NCBI RefSeq assembly: GCF_027497195.1
Contig: NZ_CP114905.1
Location: 5,715,001 to 5,779,000, forward strand
DNA: 64,000 nt
Source of the DNA: Streptomyces sp. WMMC500
GTDB taxonomy: Bacteria > Actinomycetota > Actinomycetes > Streptomycetales > Streptomycetaceae
Reading direction: 5' to 3'
Shown here: positions 7,314-16,415 of the stretch, piece after piece
Layout of the letters: each line of letters opens with the position of its first letter
How positions within the stretch are numbered: the first letter of the stretch is position 1
The notes under the pieces: model-generated
Told to the model about the DNA's origin: nothing
Seen by the model: the letters and a program-made list of their open reading frames with translations, nothing else
Database searches by the model: none
Program-made: the position numbers and the translations under genes

Positions 7314-10010
7314 ATGCCCCTCAACGAGAACGGCCGCACGGCAGGCAAGAGGCGCCGCCTCATCTACGTCGCGATCGGTCTCGCCACCGTGCTCGTGCTG
7401 GGCGTGGGCGCCGCCGCGTTCTGGACCGTCAGCACGGTGCGCGACTCCTTCCCGCAGACCACCGGTTCGCTCAAACTGAGCGGTCTGGCCTCGCCGGTCA
7501 CGGTCAAGCGCGATGCCCGCGGGGTGCCGACACTGTACGGGGACACCGCCGAGGACCTCTTCAGGGCGCAGGGCTTCGTACACGCGCAGGACCGCTTCTG
7601 GGAGATGGACGTCCGCCGCCACATGACGTCGGGCCGGCTGTCGGAGATGTTCGGCGCGGAGCAGGTCGAGACCGACGAGTTCCTGCGCACGCTGGGCTGG
7701 CGGCAGGTGGCGCAGAAGGAGTACGACGAGGAGCTGTCGGCGGAGACCAAGAAGTACCTGCGGGCCTACGCCGACGGGGTCAACGCCTACCTCGCGGACC
7801 ACAGCGGCTCCGGTCTGTCCGTGGAGTACGCCGCCCTGGGGTTCGTCAACGACTACGAGCCGGAGAAGTGGAGCCCCGTCGACTCCGTCGCCTGGCTGAA
7901 GGCGATGGCGTGGGACCTGCGGGCCAACGTCGAGGACGAGATCGACCGCTCGCTGCTCTCCCAGCGCTTCGACGAGGGCGAGATCGCCGACCTGTACCCG
8001 CCCTACCCGTACGAGCGCAACAAGCCGATCGTGGAAGGCGGCTCCGCGACCGCCGACGGCTACGAACCGCAGAGTGCGGGAGGGGCGCAGAGCACGTACA
8101 GTGCCGCCACCGCGGGCCTCAGCAGCCAGATGGGCTCGCTGGCGAAGACCATGGACGACATCCCCGCCCTCCTCGGTCCCAGCGGCAGCGGCATCGGCTC
8201 CAACTCCTGGGTGGTCTCCGGCGACCTGACCACCACCGAGAAGCCGCTCCTCGCCAACGACCCGCACCTGTCCGCGCAGCTCCCCTCGGTCTGGTACCAG
8301 ATGGGTCTGCAGTGCACGAGAGTCAGCGACGACTGCCCCTACGAGGTCAGCGGCTTCTCCTTCTCCGGCATGCCCGGCGTGGTCATAGGTCACAACGCCG
8401 ACATCTCCTGGGGCCTGACCAACCTGGGCGCCGACGTCGCCGACCTGTATCTGGAGAAGGTCGAGGACGACGGCTATCTCTACGACGGCGAGTCGCGCGA
8501 GTTCGGCACCCGGGAGGAGCTGATCAAGGTCGCGGACGGCGAGGACAAGCGCATCACCGTACGCACCACGCGCAACGGGCCCGTGGTCTCCGACCGCAGC
8601 GACGAGATGGCCGAGGTCGGCAAAGAAGCCCCCGTGGGCAACTCCGCGCCCGACCGGGGCGACGGGTACGCCGTCTCGCTGCGCTGGACCGCCCTGGAGC
8701 CGTCCAGCACCATGGACGCCGTCTTCGGCATCAACAGAGCCGCGGACTTCGATGAGTTCCGCGACGCGGCCCGCGACTTCGCCGTGCCCTCGCAGAACCT
8801 CGTCTACGCCGACACCGACGGCAACATCGGCTACCAGGCGCCCGGCAGGATCCCGCAGCGCGCCGGCGGCGACGGCAGCCTGCCCGCCCCCGGCTGGGAC
8901 CCGGCGTACTCCTGGGACGGCTACGTCCCCTTCGACTCACTGCCCTGGGAGCTCAACCCCGACCGCGGCTACGTCGTCACCGCCAACCAGGCCGTCGTCG
9001 ACGAGAACGACTACCCGTATCTGCTGACCACCGACCCCGGCTACGGCACCCGCAGCCAGCGCATCTCCGACCTCATCGAGGAGAAGATCAAGGACGGCGG
9101 GAAGATCTCCCCTGACGACATGCGCACCATGCAGCTCGACAACCACAGCGAGATCGCCGAACTCCTCACGCCGCTGCTGCTGGACATCGAGATCGATGAC
9201 CCGATGGTGCGCGAGGCCCAGGACCTGCTGAAGGACTGGGACTACAGCCAGGACACCGACTCCTCCGCCGCCGCGTACTTCAACGCCGTCTGGCGCAACA
9301 TCCTCAAGCTCGCCTTCGGCGACAAGATGCCCAAGGAGCTGCGCCCGGACGGCGAGTGCCTCCAGGTGCCGCCCGCCAACCCGGCGGCCGACCCCGACGG
9401 GCCCGCCACCGTGCGCGAGTGCGGCGAGCGCGACGCGGACGCCGCCCAGCCGGACGGCGGTGACCGGTGGTTCGAGGTCGTACGGAGCATCCTCAAGGAC
9501 GAGGACAACCGCTGGTGGACGACCACCGACAGCCGCGGGGAGTCCCTCGACGGGAACCGCGACGAGCTGTTCGAGCACGCCATGAACGACGCCCGCTGGG
9601 AGCTGACCGCCGAGCTGGGCAAGGACATCGACACCTGGTCCTGGGGCCGGCTACACCGGCTGATGCTGCGCAACCAGACGCTGGGCACCGACGGTCCGGG
9701 CATCGTGCAGTGGGTGCTCAACCGCGGCCCGTGGAACCTCAGCGGCGGCGAGGCCGCCGTCAACGCCACCGGCTGGAACGCGGCCGGCGGATACGACGTG
9801 CTGTGGGTGCCGTCCATGCGGATGGTGGTGGACCTGGCGGACCTCGACGCCTCGGGCTGGGTCAACCTCTCCGGCGCCTCGGGGCACGCCTTCCACCCGA
9901 ACTACACGGACCAGACCACGGCGTGGGCGAAGGGCGAGCTGTACGAGTGGCCGTTCTCCGACAAGGCGGTGGAGGACGCCGCGGAGGACACGATGACGCT
10001 GTCGCCGTGA
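7314..10010 (+). CDS. penicillin acylase family N-terminal-nucleophile hydrolase
   Basis: An 898-residue exported amidohydrolase. A short basic N-terminus precedes one hydrophobic helix (LIYVAIGLATVLVLGVGAAAFW, residues 17 to 38), a signal anchor or signal peptide. The alpha-chain part contains LYGDTAEDLFRAQGFVHAQDRFWEMD, strongly typical of the family. The autoprocessing site and nucleophile are in GIGSNSWVVSG, with Ser296 the new N-terminal residue of the beta chain; downstream LLANDPHLS and TANQAVV are also conserved. Members cleave the acyl side chain of penicillins, acyl-homoserine lactones, or cyclic lipopeptides such as echinocandin; the substrate cannot be read from sequence. AGAAGGACAGGC precedes the ATG. 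It stands alone, convergent with the next gene. Confidence 0.9.
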   Translation: MPLNENGRTAGKRRRLIYVAIGLATVLVLGVGAAAFWTVSTVRDSFPQTTGSLKLSGLASPVTVKRDARGVPTLYGDTAEDLFRAQGFVHAQDRFWEMDVRRHMTSGRLSEMFGAEQVETDEFLRTLGWRQVAQKEYDEELSAETKKYLRAYADGVNAYLADHSGSGLSVEYAALGFVNDYEPEKWSPVDSVAWLKAMAWDLRANVEDEIDRSLLSQRFDEGEIADLYPPYPYERNKPIVEGGSATADGYEPQSAGGAQSTYSAATAGLSSQMGSLAKTMDDIPALLGPSGSGIGSNSWVVSGDLTTTEKPLLANDPHLSAQLPSVWYQMGLQCTRVSDDCPYEVSGFSFSGMPGVVIGHNADISWGLTNLGADVADLYLEKVEDDGYLYDGESREFGTREELIKVADGEDKRITVRTTRNGPVVSDRSDEMAEVGKEAPVGNSAPDRGDGYAVSLRWTALEPSSTMDAVFGINRAADFDEFRDAARDFAVPSQNLVYADTDGNIGYQAPGRIPQRAGGDGSLPAPGWDPAYSWDGYVPFDSLPWELNPDRGYVVTANQAVVDENDYPYLLTTDPGYGTRSQRISDLIEEKIKDGGKISPDDMRTMQLDNHSEIAELLTPLLLDIEIDDPMVREAQDLLKDWDYSQDTDSSAAAYFNAVWRNILKLAFGDKMPKELRPDGECLQVPPANPAADPDGPATVRECGERDADAAQPDGGDRWFEVVRSILKDEDNRWWTTTDSRGESLDGNRDELFEHAMNDARWELTAELGKDIDTWSWGRLHRLMLRNQTLGTDGPGIVQWVLNRGPWNLSGGEAAVNATGWNAAGGYDVLWVPSMRMVVDLADLDASGWVNLSGASGHAFHPNYTDQTTAWAKGELYEWPFSDKAVEDAAEDTMTLSP

Positions 10011-10817: not shown

Positions 10818-11726
10818 ATGGATTCTTCGCGTACTCGGATCACCAAGGCTGTCATCCCGGCCGCCGGCCTCGGCACTCGCTTCCTGCCGGCGACCAAGGC
10901 GACGCCCAAGGAGATGCTGCCCGTCGTCGACAAGCCCGCGATCCAGTACGTCGTCGAGGAGGCCGTCTCGGCCGGACTCACCGACGTCCTCATGATCACC
11001 GGGCGGAACAAGCGCCCGCTCGAAGACCACTTCGACCGCAACCACGAGCTGGAAGAGGCCCTGCGCAAGAAGGGCGACGAGGCGCGCCTGGCCAAGGTCG
11101 CGGAGTCCAACGACCTGGCCAACATCCACTACGTCCGCCAGGGTGACCCCCGCGGCCTCGGCCACGCGGTGCTGTGCGCCGCCGAGCACGTCGGCGACCA
11201 GCCGTTCGCCGTCCTCCTCGGCGACGACCTCATCGACCCGCGCGATCCGCTGCTGGCCCGCATGGTGCGCGCCCAGGCCGACCACGGCGGCAGCGTCATC
11301 GCGCTGATGGAGGTCGACCCGGAGCAGATCCACCTCTACGGCTGCGCGGCGGTGGAGACCACCGCGGACAGCGACGTCGTGCGCGTCACCGACCTCGTCG
11401 AGAAGCCCGCGGTCGCGGACGCGCCCAGCAACTACGCGGTGATCGGCCGCTATGTCCTCGACGCCGCGATCTTCGACGTGCTGCGCACGACGGAGCCCGG
11501 CCGGGGGAACGAGATCCAGCTCACCGACGCGCTGCAGCGGCTGGCGACGGACGAGGCGCTGGCGAGCCCGGTGTACGGCGTGGTGTTCAAGGGCCGGCGG
11601 TACGACACGGGCGACCGCAGCGACTACCTCCGGGCCATCGTCCGCCTCGCGTGCGAGCGTGAGGACCTCGGCGCCGACCTGCGCGCGTGGCTGCGGAAGT
11701 ACGTCGCGGAGGAGATGGCGGATTGA
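10818..11726 (+). CDS. galU: UTP-glucose-1-phosphate uridylyltransferase
   Basis: Makes UDP-glucose from UTP and glucose-1-phosphate for cell-envelope and storage sugars. The 302-residue product begins MDSSRTRITKAVIPAAGLGTRFLPATKATPKEML (the first 30 residues hold the nucleotidyltransferase loop), with VVDKPAIQYVVEEAV, DDLIDP, LVEKPAVADAPSNYAVIGRYVL and GNEIQLTDALQRL, all GalU hallmarks. In-frame alternatives are ATG 10806 and TTG 10788; the chosen ATG matches the usual protein length and leaves room for a promoter. Its stop overlaps the TTG of glp (TTGA), so the two are translationally coupled. In actinobacteria galU commonly leads this cluster. Confidence 0.93.
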   Translation: MDSSRTRITKAVIPAAGLGTRFLPATKATPKEMLPVVDKPAIQYVVEEAVSAGLTDVLMITGRNKRPLEDHFDRNHELEEALRKKGDEARLAKVAESNDLANIHYVRQGDPRGLGHAVLCAAEHVGDQPFAVLLGDDLIDPRDPLLARMVRAQADHGGSVIALMEVDPEQIHLYGCAAVETTADSDVVRVTDLVEKPAVADAPSNYAVIGRYVLDAAIFDVLRTTEPGRGNEIQLTDALQRLATDEALASPVYGVVFKGRRYDTGDRSDYLRAIVRLACEREDLGADLRAWLRKYVAEEMAD

Positions 11727-13249
11727 GCGAGGCGGTGAAGGGCGCGACGGAAGCGGGGGAGCAGGAGCCGGCGACCGGCATGCAGGAGCCCGGAGAACCG
11801 GCGGCCGAAAAACCCGAGACGGTGGAACCGGAGACCGGGGAGCCGGCTGCCGGGGAGCCGGAGTCCGGCGCGCCGGAGACGGGCGCCGGGGACCCGGAGG
11901 CCGGCGACGCCCGGCAGGGGCGCCGGCCCTCCGGGGTGTGGTCCGTCGAGGAGCACCTGGACGACATACTGCGGCAGGTCCGCCCGTTGGAGCCGCTGGA
12001 GATGCAGTTGCTCGACGCCCAGGGCTGCGTCCTCGTCGAGGACGTCACCGCGGCCGTCGCCCTCCCGCCGTTCGACAACAGCTCCATGGACGGGTACGCC
12101 GTGCGCACCGTCGACGTGGAGCGCGCGAGCGACGAGTTCCCGGCCGTCCTGCGCGTCATCGGCGACGTCCCGGCGGGCGGCGGCGGTGAGTTGCCGCACG
12201 TCGGCGCGGGCGAGGCCGCCCGCATCATGACCGGCGCCCCGCTGCCGCCCGGCACGCAGGCCGTCGTCCCCGTGGAGTGGACCGACGGCGGCACGGGCCG
12301 CGGCCGGGTCGACGCCATGCGCCCGCACAGCGAGTCCCCCGCGGGCGCCGGCGGCGAGGTGCGGATCTACGCCCCCGCCGACACCGGCCGGCACGTCCGC
12401 ACCCGCGGCAGCGACGTCGTCGCCGGCGACCTGGTGCTGCCCGCCGGCACGCTGCTCGGCCCGGCGCAGATCGGGCTGCTCGCGGCCATCGGCCGCGGCA
12501 CGGTGCGGGTCCGCCCGCGCCCGCGGGTCGTCGTGCTGTCCACCGGCAGCGAGTTGGTGCCCCCGGGCGAACAGCTCGCCCCGGGACGTATCCACGACTC
12601 CAACAGCTACGCGCTGACCGCCGCCGCCCGCGACGCGGGCGCCATCGCGTACCGCGTGGGCGCCGTCGCCGACGACGCCGAGACCCTGCGCGCGACCGTC
12701 GAGGACCAGCTCATCCGCGCGGACGCGCTGGTCACCAGCGGGGGCGTCAGCGTCGGGGCGTACGACGTGGTCAAGGAGGCCCTGGCCGAGCTGGACGGCG
12801 AGGCGGGCGGCGGGGTGGAGTTCCGGCGGCTGGCCATGCAGCCGGGCAAGCCGCAGGGCTTCGGCCGTATCGGCGCGGACCGCACCCCGCTGTTCGCGCT
12901 CCCGGGGAACCCGGTGAGTGCGTACATCTCCTTCGAGATGTTCGTACGGCCCGTGATCCGCAGACTGATGGGCGTGGAGCCGGAGCACCGCCCGGTGGTG
13001 CGGGCGCGCCTGGCCGGCGACGAGCCGCTGAGTTCGCCGCCGGGCCGCCGGCAGTACCTCCGCGGCCGGTACGCGGACGAGCCGGCCGGCGGCGGCACGC
13101 ACCCCGACGCCGGTGAGGTCACCCCCGTGGGCGGCGCCGGCTCACACCTCATCGCCGCACTGGCCCGTGCGAACGCGCTCGTCGTCGTGCCCGAGGAGAC
13201 CACGGAGGTGGCGCCGGGGTCGCCCGTGGACGTCGTCCTCCTCGACTGA
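11723..13249 (+). CDS. glp: gephyrin/MoeA-like molybdotransferase, probable Glp
   Basis: A 508-residue protein: an acidic, Pro/Gly/Glu-rich N-terminal tail of about 70 residues, then a complete MoeA fold from [26 protein letters not shown] to [48 protein letters not shown] and [15 protein letters not shown] are MoeA signatures. MoeA inserts molybdate into molybdopterin. The [11 protein letters not shown] loop has Ala346 where E. coli MoeA has the catalytic Glu of VGEAD, so activity may be impaired. In Corynebacterium a gephyrin-like MoeA homologue (Glp) encoded beside the SepX/GlpR receptor acts in cell division; the same neighbours are here (rimJ, sepX), so I favour that role. TTG 11723 overlaps the galU stop. 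Confidence 0.9.
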
Positions 13250-13336
13250 GCGGCGGACCGGGAAACGCGCGGAGCCGAACGGCAGGCCGTGGAGGTACGG
13301 TGGCTCCGCGCGCATTCACCCCGGGAGCTCCACGCC

Positions 13337-13828
13337 ATGAGCCAGCCAAGCCGCCTGACCCACCTCGACGACACGGGCGCCGCCCGCATGGTCGACGTCT
13401 CCGCCAAGGACGTCACCGCGCGCACCGCCCGCGCCTCCGGGCGCGTCCTCGTCTCGCCGCGCGTCGTCGAACTGCTCCGCGGCACCGCGCCCGGCGAGAC
13501 GCTGCCCAAGGGCGACGCCCTGGCCACCGCCCGCCTCGCCGGCATCATGGGCGCCAAACGCACCCCCGACCTGATCCCCCTCTGCCATCCGCTGGCGCTG
13601 TCCGGCGTCACCGTCGACCTCGGCGTCGCGGACGACGCGGTGGAGATCGCGGCGACCGTGCGCACCACGGACCGCACCGGCGTGGAGATGGAGGCGCTGA
13701 CCGCGGTGTCGGTGGCGGCGCTCACGGTGGTCGACATGGTCAAGGCCGTCGACAAGGCGGCGGTCATCACGGACGTGCGGGTCGAGACGAAGACCGGCGG
13801 CAAGTCCGGCGACTGGAGCCGGTCATGA
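13337..13828 (+). CDS. moaC: cyclic pyranopterin monophosphate synthase MoaC
   Basis: Second enzyme of molybdenum-cofactor synthesis, converting the MoaA product to cyclic pyranopterin monophosphate. The 163-residue product shows [25 protein letters not shown] at the N-terminus, [31 protein letters not shown] with the active-site region, and [30 protein letters not shown] near the C-terminus, all diagnostic of MoaC. ATG 13337 is preceded by GGGAG eight bases upstream. It lies 87 bases after glp and overlaps the next gene by ATGA, so the two are coupled. Confidence 0.95.
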
Positions 13829-14358
13829 GGGCCCTGGCGGTCACGGTGTCCAACCGCGCGGCGGCCGGGGTGTACGCGGACACGGGCGGCCCGCTGCTCG
13901 TCGCGGGCCTGACGGAGATGGGCTTCGCCGCGGAAGGCCCGCGGGTGGTGCCGGACGGCGAGCCCGTGGAGGCGGTGCTGCGCGAGGCGGTCGCCGCCGG
14001 CTACGACGTGGTCCTGACCACCGGCGGCACGGGCGTCTCGCCGACCGACCGCACCCCGGAGATGACTGCGCGGGTGCTGGACCGCCAACTGCCGGGCGTA
14101 CCGGAGGCGATCAGGGCGCACGGATACGCGAAGGTGCCCACCGCCGCGCTCTCCCGCGGCCTCGCCGGGGTCGCGGGCCGTACGGTCATCGTGAACCTGC
14201 CGGGCTCGTCCGGGGGCGTACGCGACGGGCTCGCGGTGCTGGCGCGGCTGCTGCCGCACGCGGTCGACCAGGTGCACGGCGGCGACCACGCGCGCGGCGA
14301 CGACGGCCCGGCCGGGGACGCGGACGGCGGGTCCAGACACCCCGGCGGTGCCCACTGA
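13825..14358 (+). CDS. mog: MogA/MoaB-type molybdopterin adenylyltransferase
   Basis: Activates molybdopterin by adenylylation before molybdate insertion. The 177-residue protein has [25 protein letters not shown] at the N-terminus, the [15 protein letters not shown] motif near residue 70 and [13 protein letters not shown] near residue 130, all typical of MogA/MoaB. The last 25 residues are Gly/Asp-rich and probably disordered. Its ATG overlaps the moaC stop codon (ATGA), so translation is coupled. It is followed after 17 bases by rimJ. Confidence 0.92.
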
Positions 14359-14375
14359 GCGCGTCCTGGCCCGCG

Positions 14376-14972
14376 GTGCTGGCGGAGGGGCCCGTGACCC
14401 TCCGCCCCATCCGCGCGCGCGACCAGCGCGTCTGGCGGGAGATCAACCAGCGCAACCGCGACTGGCTGCGCCCCTGGGAGGCCACCATCCCACCCCCGCC
14501 CCCGGGCACCCCGCACACCCGCCGCCCCACCTTCCGGCAGATGGTCCGGCACCTGCGCAGCGAGGCGAGCGCGGGGCGGATGCTGCCCTTCGTCATCGAA
14601 TACCAGGGCACGCTGTGCGGGCAGTTGACCGTGGCGGGCATCACGTGGGGCTCGATGCGTTCCGGGCACGTCGGTTACTGGATCGACCGGGATTACGCGG
14701 GCCGGGGCGTGATGCCGACGTCGGTGGCGCTCGCGGTGGACCACTGTTTCCGGACTGTGGGGCTGCACCGCATCGAGGTCTGCATCCGTCCGGAGAACAT
14801 GCCGAGCCGTCGGGTGGTGGAAAAGCTGGGCTTTCGGGAAGAGGGCGTGCGCCCGCGCTACCTGCACATCGACGGGGCCTGGCGCGACCACCTGGTGTAC
14901 GTGCTGACCACCGAGGAAGTTCCGGAGGGGCTCGTCAACCGGTGGCGTGGGCTTCGCCACTCGGAGAAATAA
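14376..14972 (+). CDS. rimJ: RimJ/RimL-type GNAT N-acetyltransferase
   Basis: A 198-residue acetyltransferase of the ribosomal-protein N-acetyltransferase type: [29 protein letters not shown] at the N-terminus, the acetyl-CoA region [29 protein letters not shown] near residues 95 to 125, and the C-terminal [44 protein letters not shown]. The acceptor is unknown; neighbours suggest it may modify a division or translation protein. GTG 14376 is used; GTG 14394, with GGAGGGG just before it, is a good alternative. It is probably the last gene cotranscribed from galU; sepX has its own upstream region. Confidence 0.9.
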
Positions 14973-15095
14973 AACAAAGATTCGATAGTCCGGGCGTAAA
15001 AAGTCAGAAGAAAAGGTCGAGATATCAGCCAGATGGTGCGACACACCGAGCCAATTGGCCCATGCGCTGTCGCCGCGGCCTCTACCGTGTAAGGC
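14973..15095 (+). promoter_or_regulatory. A-rich upstream region and leaderless promoter of sepX
   Basis: This gap is strikingly A-rich against its surroundings, with runs of A on the plus strand between 14970 and 15025 (for example TAAAACAAAG and GTAAAAAGTC). TACCGT at 15083-15088 lies seven bases before the GTG of sepX, the leaderless -10 pattern. A TTGGCC at 15055-15060 is 22 bases upstream of it, too far for a normal -35. The A-rich part may be an activator site or curved DNA. Confidence 0.45.
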
Positions 15096-16415
15096 GTGAG
15101 CAGCAGCGGCCTCATCTACGCAATGATCGTCGGGGCCTGGGCCGCCTACTTGGTGCCGATGTGGCTCCGTAGGCAGGACGAGCTGAACGAAGCCCGTCCG
15201 ACGGAACGCTTCAGCACCGCCATCCGGCTGCTGACCGGACGGGGTGGGGCGGACCGTACCCAGGGCCGGGACGGCGCCGACTCCGGCTCCGGCCCGCCGG
15301 CCTCGGCCTCGGGCCCCTCCTCCGGCTCGGAGGAGGACGCCGGAGGCGCCGACGAGAGCCCGGACGCCGCACCCGCCGCAGGCGGCGTGGTGGACGTCCG
15401 GGCCGCTGCCGTGCCCGTGACCGACCCCCGCGCCGCCGCCCCGCGCCCGCGCCGTACCCGCCAGGAGACCCCGGCGGCGCCGGTGGCGCGCCCGGGGGCG
15501 GCGGCGCAGGCAAGGGTGGAGGAGGAGCCGGAGGCGGCTCCGGCGGGGCGTACCGACGCGCAGCCGGGCGTGACCGCGAGCCCGCACGCCCCGGAAGGCG
15601 ACCCCGCCCCCGCGGCCGGAGCCGAACCCGCCCCCGCGCGCAACCAGCCGTCCCCGTACACCCCTGAGCGCCGGGCGCGGGCACGGGTGCTCGCGCGCCG
15701 GAGGCGCACGCTGACGATGCTGTTCGTGGCCCTGACCGCGGGCGCCGTGGCGGCCTCGGTGGGCGGCCCGCGCTTCCTGTGGGCCGTCGTCGTCCCGGGG
15801 CTGCTGCTCACCGCGTACGTCGTCCGCGTACGCACCCAGGAGCGCCACCGCCGCACCTTCACCGCGGACCAGGCACGCGGCGAGGCGGCGGCCCGCCGCC
15901 TGCGCGAGGACCGCGAAGCCTCCCCCCGCCGGACCCACGACAACGCCGACGACACCCGCGACGGAGACGACGGGGAGGGGGCCGAAGACGACGCCGGCGA
16001 CCCGTCCGCCACCGCCCCGTTCGACGCCCCGGCGGCGGCGTACGAGGCGGACCGCAGGGCGCTGGTGGAGCAGACCGACCACGCCGAGTGGGTCGACCAG
16101 CAGCGCGAACGCGACCGCCCGGCCGACGCCGGCTGGGACCCCGTACCGGTCCCGCTGCCCACGTACGTCACGGCCCCCGTGGCCCCCCGCGCCACCCGGG
16201 GCCTGGACTTCGACGCCCCGGACACCTGGAGCTCGGCCCGCTCCAGCACCGCGGAACCCCACAAACCGCAGCCGGAAACCACCCCCGCGCCCCCCGACCC
16301 GGCAGACCCGCCTGCCGACCCCGAATCCCCACCCCGCCGCCCCCGCCCCACCAACCGCACCCCTCTCTTCGACCAGTACGCCGACCCACCCCGCCGCCGC
16401 GCCGCCAACGAGTAG
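15096..16415 (+). CDS. sepX: SepX/GlpR-type septation membrane protein
   Basis: A 439-residue membrane protein starting MSSSGLIYAMIVGAWAAYLVPMWLRRQDELNEARPTERFSTAIRLL, with one N-terminal helix (residues 5 to 24), then about 150 residues of low-complexity acidic/Ala/Pro sequence, a basic stretch, and two further helices near residues 206 to 245 (TLTMLFVALTAGAVAASV and FLWAVVVPGLLLTAYVV). The rest is charged and disordered. Sequence pattern and position after rimJ match the actinobacterial protein called SepX in Streptomyces (septation, sporulation) and GlpR in Corynebacterium (membrane receptor of the MoeA-like Glp). The gene name rests on remembered context, not an alignment. GTG 15096 appears leaderless. 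Confidence 0.82.
   Translation: MSSSGLIYAMIVGAWAAYLVPMWLRRQDELNEARPTERFSTAIRLLTGRGGADRTQGRDGADSGSGPPASASGPSSGSEEDAGGADESPDAAPAAGGVVDVRAAAVPVTDPRAAAPRPRRTRQETPAAPVARPGAAAQARVEEEPEAAPAGRTDAQPGVTASPHAPEGDPAPAAGAEPAPARNQPSPYTPERRARARVLARRRRTLTMLFVALTAGAVAASVGGPRFLWAVVVPGLLLTAYVVRVRTQERHRRTFTADQARGEAAARRLREDREASPRRTHDNADDTRDGDDGEGAEDDAGDPSATAPFDAPAAAYEADRRALVEQTDHAEWVDQQRERDRPADAGWDPVPVPLPTYVTAPVAPRATRGLDFDAPDTWSSARSSTAEPHKPQPETTPAPPDPADPPADPESPPRRPRPTNRTPLFDQYADPPRRRAANE

Follow-up and report, generated by a model that had tools for sequence, protein, structure and literature searches.

PMC11733289 describes gephyrin as an enzyme that also serves as a scaffold for membrane receptors; it further presents Glp proteins as a group with predicted loss of activity, an enzyme turned scaffold, and states that at least two MoeA copies are present in every Glp-bearing genome. 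In a second paper (PMC10522489), the gene for Corynebacterium glutamicum Glp (Cgl0883; structures 8BVE and 8BVF) has the GlpR gene in its neighbourhood, the FtsZ-binding loop of the protein is M361-Y369, and most actinobacterial genomes are said to have at least two MoeA copies. For Streptomyces SepX (vnz_14865), the SepX paper (PMC8748795) states that no genes for other known components of the divisome lie close to sepX. We describe here a MoeA-family protein of the Glp clade encoded in a 64,000-nucleotide stretch of Streptomyces sp. WMMC500 (contig NZ_CP114905.1; the whole stretch is referred to as the window), where the open reading frames (ORFs) and profile matches give the plus-strand order galU-glp-moaC-mog-rimJ-like-sepX. 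The cluster is already known as such, with its key genes named by curated NCBIfam models, and an initial annotation that recognised it as a Glp-SepX cluster from its gene order stands, as the NCBIfam cut-offs are passed. The window Glp is probably a catalytically competent MoeA insertase as well as a member of a conserved SepX division module, and so would be a bifunctional protein of the gephyrin kind.

The window Glp resembles C. glutamicum Glp, its best match in the PDB (8BVE, 251 bits), in clade and in having a proline-rich link, and its gene likewise lies near sepX/glpR; the last gene of the cluster passes the NCBIfam SepX_GlpR_2 cut-off, which places it with Streptomyces SepX. However, C. 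glutamicum Glp is altered at D228, GGVSVGxxD, PGKP, and PGNP (GAVGGAGSA, PGSV, PSNP); the window protein retains all four, so the Glp with a proven role in division differs from it in having an altered site. The catalytic residues are shared with E. coli MoeA (1G8L, 1FC5), although the segment between domains I and III reads RPRPR in the window Glp and IRKVR in E. coli, and the window gene sits with sepX. One such link is present here, and the hinges of Glp are described as two. Three domains score over their cut-offs in the window protein (MoeA_N, 157.3 bits; MoCF_biosynth, 116.4 bits; MoeA_C, 62.4 bits). Eukaryotic gephyrin and Cnx1 share the MoeA-type E-domain, but Mog is a separate gene here and the partner would be SepX/GlpR together with the division cytoskeleton.

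Alignment with E. coli MoeA (numbered from the E. coli gene, NC_000913) places D59, T100, R137, D142, E188, D228, GGVSVG, D259, PGKP, PGNP, R350, and S371 in the window Glp, and all 14 core positions are retained in the MAFFT alignment, in agreement with the initial annotation that the other MoeA motifs are intact; the changes are E257 to Ala, K275 to Arg, and K279 to Gln. That annotation had also singled out Ala346 in GGVSVGAYD as the loss of a glutamate essential in E. coli MoeA, and as the mark of a protein kept for a structural role. The alanine is real (codon 12758-12760; residue 346 from TTG 11723, and 358 from GTG 11687), but it is aligned with E257 of the E. coli motif GGVSVG-E257-A258-D259, and the acid at 259 is retained as D360. 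No source calling E257 essential was found in the literature searched, a MoeA mutagenesis paper being outside that literature. The structural-role argument fails because alanine is usual at this position and D259 and the other catalytic residues are retained: in the sole MoeA of genomes with MoaA, the residue is Ala in 45/51, Asp in three, Glu in two, and Thr in one. The same alanine is found in 120/120 of the closest homologues listed for the window Glp and in 118/120 of those listed for a Jiangellaceae-type Glp, so that on these alignments its presence is not due to chance, and we rejected Ala-for-Glu as an inactivating change. Apparently inactive Glps differ elsewhere, at D228, GGVSxGxxD, PGKP, or PGNP, and the 120 homologues listed of the Streptomyces type have Asp259, QPGKP, and LPGNP in every case, MDGYAV in 118, and MTGAP in 117. 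Lys279 does not appear to be defining for a MoeA insertase of the sole-MoeA class either, because this position is Gln in 49 and Arg in two of the 51 sole-MoeA genomes.

D274 of Cnx1E is reported to be critical in PMC9458074, and we infer that it is the counterpart of E. coli D259, because S269/D274 and S254/D259 are both five residues apart. At E. coli position 259, Glu takes the place of Asp in three loci of family f15 (L058, L064, L066) and four of family f4 (L070, L072, L074, L076), all of them MoeAs that are the sole or a passing copy; in PMC9458074, D274E at the matching Cnx1E site is reported to lead to accumulation of molybdate and of adenylylated molybdopterin (MPT-AMP).

We ran the Glp_gephyrin profile on an even sample of 118 genomes across the class (genomes, MoeA-like loci, and families carry the prefixes G, L, and f), and a MoeA-family match was present in 118/118 and exceeded the Glp cut-off in 93/118; MoaA (PF06463) was matched in 103, MoCoBD_1 in 77, and Oxidored_molyb in 99. 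The loci covered are the main gene of each genome and further copies from many, 172 MoeA-like ORFs, two of which are stand-ins for reference rows (the window and E. coli rows take the place of L001 and L135). A gene is called intact on 14 core positions, read from a single MAFFT alignment with Asp and Glu both accepted at position 259. MoeA-like matches below 60 bits and residues beyond the match plus 12 on each side were excluded, eight short loci were swapped for wider ones, and low-scoring further matches in some genomes with several MoeAs are outside the set. The counts of sepX are to be read with its detection in mind: it was sought with the window SepX only (E 1e-4), which misses divergent ones including all eight of f4, and many stretches are too short to reach it. 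No cluster call was made in six genomes (G002, G056, G081, G091, G100, and G101), of which G081 and G091 are among the 51 sole-MoeA genomes.

In the related genomes surveyed, a changed active site was found only where the molybdenum cofactor (Moco) pathway is missing or another passing MoeA is present. Fifty-one genomes in 16 families have MoaA and a single MoeA, and this MoeA is intact in 51/51. Because the Glp_gephyrin match counts probably include weak partial matches (18-36 bits), the sole-MoeA set was rechecked with MoeA_N, which gave one match over the cut-off in 51/51, with a partial sub-threshold match of 21-23 bits in addition in G034 and G042; the weak partial matches may be CinA-like. 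The sole MoeA is in a cluster with galU, rimJ, or sepX in 49/51 (15 families), with moaC near all 49, rimJ near 46, galU near 40, and sepX near 30, and all but two of the 49 (G069 and G111) pass the NCBI Glp cut-off. Eleven of the 49 assemblies are single contigs and all 11 match both molybdoenzyme families, at least one of which is matched in 50/51 sole-MoeA genomes. These 49 genomes contradict the two-copy statement of PMC11733289; one of their families, f17, can be named as Jiangellaceae from the closest named proteins of G107, and no report of an intact-site Glp was found in the literature searched; the published loss of activity does agree with f4, the family that groups with C. glutamicum Glp.

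No intact MoeA-derived gene is present in the 15 genomes (six families) without MoaA, and profile searches of these found MoaC, MoaE, Oxidored_molyb, and PF02738 in 0/15 each (none is among the 77 PF02738 positives). The cluster is retained in all 15, with rimJ in 15, sepX detected in 12, and galU in nine, and the printed gene order at four of the loci is galU-glp-rimJ-sepX in three and glp-rimJ-sepX in L038. Because the MoeA-derived gene stays beside rimJ in all 15, a non-Moco role is probably widespread. Two or more matches accompany MoaA in 52 genomes, of which 32 have an intact cluster gene, 16 a changed one, and four no cluster call, and every MoaA-bearing genome with a changed Glp has another MoeA that passes the 14 positions (16/16). 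Close relatives show the same pattern: in genus g22, Glp is sole and intact in G022 and G099, and G089 has a changed Glp with another moeA near moaC and mog; in family f14, a genus without MoaA (G093, G103) has changed genes and five sole-MoeA relatives have intact ones.

The moaC and mog genes follow catalytic function. Where rimJ or sepX lies on its stretch, a gene is intact in 79/82 cases when moaC/mog is nearby and in 0/28 when it is absent, and the 31 changed-site cluster genes have rimJ in 31 cases, galU in 20, and sepX detected in 19, with moaC near one and a mog-like gene near three. Both moaC and mog are found beside another, passing MoeA in G089, G082, G025, G032, G088, G098, and four of the eight f4 genomes (G027, G092, G102, G112). 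Other MoeA genes near moaC/mog are intact in 21/21, including three cluster genes (G013, G067, G113) whose stretches are not long enough to reach rimJ, and those with neither neighbourhood are intact in 19/40. The moaC/mog neighbourhood noted initially is meaningful, and of the suggested link between cofactor synthesis and septation, the sharing of one cluster stands, but moaC and mog go with catalysis.

In a FastTree tree (173 rows, core positions masked), one clade of 116 rows (local support 97, with long-branch warnings) contains the window Glp, the sole-MoeA genes, all but one of the 15 no-MoaA cluster genes, and C. glutamicum Glp together with f4; cluster genes L045, L098, L111, and L088 are outside this clade, which also takes in a few MoeAs that have no cluster call. 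E. coli N55, M58, M99, T100, E115, S254, K262, P283, N300, S303, S371, and H372 are among the columns conserved at 95% or more in 81 intact cluster genes and at 20% or less in the 15 no-MoaA genes, and many of these columns fall within or beside catalytic motifs (L107 was excluded from this and from the cluster-gene tree). Columns common to the two groups include window P277, P279, and R280; the link prolines are present in 98% (P277) and 100% (P279) of the 81 intact cluster genes and both in 15/15 no-MoaA genes, and E. coli has R176 and V178 at these positions.

The retained site and the conserved neighbourhood suggest a model in which Glp would insert molybdate into MPT-AMP received from Mog, and in Streptomyces would also act with SepX at the septum in a role apart from Moco. 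The loss of catalysis described in print would be a secondary state, arising in lineages that stopped Moco synthesis or in which another MoeA took over. If so, moonlighting and not repurposing would be the base state of Glp, many actinomycetes would have their likely molybdotransferase hidden behind the NCBI name 'molybdotransferase-like', and Streptomyces would offer a model in which point mutations could separate the two jobs. Lineages that lack the Moco pathway, above all Candidatus Planktophila, look like natural separation-of-function alleles, as Glp there has lost about a whole domain. We also consider a more far-reaching proposal, in which the Glp that is both ancestral and commonest in actinomycetes would be a true bacterial gephyrin, inserting molybdenum and organising the septum with SepX, the last Moco steps of Streptomyces (Mog and Glp) would occur at the division site, so that molybdenum status could act on septation, and loss of catalysis would be derived; this is quite unlikely.

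Several observations weigh against a bifunctional window Glp, and some of them speak for other explanations. The gene could encode an ordinary MoeA that takes no part in Streptomyces division, its sepX neighbourhood being inherited and functionless. Consistent with this, no C. glutamicum-type FtsZ-binding loop (Met361...Tyr369) was found in the window Glp by alignment; a counterpart is present in two f4 sequences compared and not in two Streptomyces sequences compared, and the loop is shorter in G016 (Streptomyces). Because it has no Met...Tyr loop stretch, the window protein is on its sequence a Glp-clade orthologue and not a demonstrated FtsZ-binding Glp. Moreover, term counts show no mention of moeA, molybdenum, or Glp in the text of the SepX paper (PMC8748795). 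We nonetheless regard this explanation as unlikely, given that a MoeA-derived gene persists beside rimJ, and mostly with sepX, in genomes of six families that have no MoaA, and that the proline link is retained in all groups. The opposite proposal is that the window Glp is a pure division scaffold, catalytically dead, with the L003-type paralogue making Moco. The activity loss predicted for Glp as a group, in the part of PMC11733289 cited above, favours it, as does the presence in 10/10 Streptomyces of an L003-type paralogue that passes the 14 core positions in 9/10 and whose relatives in other families (G082, G088, G098, G025) are the other passing MoeA near moaC/mog. L003 may therefore be a second, divergent insertase, in which case Glp need not be the sole insertase. 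However, the Streptomyces-type Glps keep the site, with the motif counts given above for the 120 homologues listed, whereas all 15 no-MoaA Glps are changed; moaC and mog adjoin glp, and neither was found near L003 within its 3.4 kb stretch; and S303 is replaced by Ala in 10/10 L003-type proteins of Streptomyces, unlike the four moaC-adjacent relatives. We judge a dead scaffold to be improbable. As for the flagged residue, that Ala for Glu257 lowers or changes activity and marks scaffold specialisation is scarcely credible: the residue is real and E. coli has Glu there, but Ala predominates in the sole MoeAs of MoaA-bearing genomes and occurs as well in non-Glp MoeAs of f4 (L070, L072, L074, L076).

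Other points against the bifunctional reading concern the survey and the active site. Position K279 of E. coli is Gln in the window Glp, and one sole-MoeA genome, G013, matches neither molybdoenzyme family searched. The association with moaC/mog has three exceptions, L088 of G039, which carries one change (N300T), and the f4 loci L073 of G057 and L075 of G070, in which the only neighbour is mog-like. In the cluster-gene tree (109 rows, with L098, L111, and L045 also excluded) intactness changes at least four times, and independent pairs are too few for significance (median p 0.5 and 0.25, range 0.25-1), with 0 cases contrary to MoaA presence or to the moaC/mog neighbourhood. Because there are few changes and the phylogeny-corrected test is underpowered, the raw survey counts are not to be read as that many independent events.

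The initial annotation had also raised the matter of a second moeA, and two further MoeA-family genes, L003 and L004, are present in the genome with glp; they fall in a separate clade of 22 rows with L112, L149, L150, and L153. The genome has one MoaA, one MoaE, six MoCoBD_1, and seven Oxidored_molyb matches, and of the stretches covering its three MoeA-family genes, that of glp alone contains moaC and mog. The ten Streptomyces examined each have a single moaC, which lies near glp, and a single MoaE. Moco production in this species probably depends on glp. Sole-Glp status is not claimable within Streptomyces, because only two of 150 genomes of the genus had a single match (G162 and G222, both drafts). 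We considered and rejected the view that both Streptomyces paralogues are degenerate, which is too strong given that L003-type relatives adjoin moaC/mog elsewhere. Loss of domain IV in L003-type proteins is not upheld either, since the sequences compared had been trimmed to the search match.

Features of the Glp-SepX cluster, with positions in the window
Feature	Position	Strand	Basis or remark
galU, UTP--glucose-1-phosphate uridylyltransferase	10818..11726	+	NCBIfam TIGR01099, 342.3 bits (cut-off 326.8)
glp, MoeA-family, Glp clade, 520 aa from GTG	11687..13249	+	NF045515 Glp_gephyrin, 570 bits (cut-off 475)
RPRPR (Glp residues 276-280), the proline-rich link of domains I and III	12512..12526	+	alignment
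Ala358/Tyr359/Asp360 codons of glp	12758..12766	+	Ala358 aligned with E. coli E257, Asp360 with D259
moaC, cyclic pyranopterin monophosphate synthase	13337..13828	+	TIGR00581, 199.5 bits; sole PF01967 match in the genome
mog/moaB-type molybdopterin adenylyltransferase-like	13825..14358	+	MoCF_biosynth, 93.3 bits
rimJ-like GNAT acetyltransferase	14376..14972	+	PF13302, 76.2 bits
sepX/glpR, divisome membrane protein	15096..16415	+	NF050099 SepX_GlpR_2, 222.4 bits (cut-off 150)

The start of mog overlaps the stop of moaC, and the other three PF00994 matches in the genome are MoeA-family proteins. The start codon of glp is unsure (GTG 11687, TTG 11723, or later), and the N-terminus (window 11687-11930) is a low-complexity stretch of about 80 residues with EPETGEP-like repeats that overlaps the end of galU. 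Owing to this stretch the window Glp, at its full length, is longer than all 120 relatives listed (423-498 residues). An AlphaFold model of the protein, made with 33 near relatives as input, is weak (mean predicted local distance difference test score, pLDDT, 63.8).

The Glps of family f21 (Candidatus Planktophila-type; L038 4848-5798, L041, L043, L044, L046, L049, L050, and L051) lack E. coli residues 42-140 in 8/8, which would be about all of domain II. Six of the eight genomes are without MoaA and MoaC, and the SepX at L038 scores 103 bits, below the cut-off of 150. This Glp looks like a natural scaffold-only form.

The number of MoeA-family matches reaches six per genome. L003 (1192-3237) is MoeA-like with a long N-terminal extension, and the sequence that follows it may encode a TrkA-type potassium channel protein. 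L004 (1258-2601) is MoeA-like with a weak MoeA_C match (20.4 bits, cut-off 22.1), and nine other Streptomyces have only two matches each. Adjacent pairs of further MoeA-like genes with AGSS instead of GGVS occur at L102, L105, L163, and L164 (f13) and at L162 (f9). Upstream of the cluster, a long ORF (window 7314-10010) may be penicillin acylase-like. The genome is 8.61 Mb, and the nearest named proteins are from Streptomyces, for example at 92% to Streptomyces sp. B8F3.

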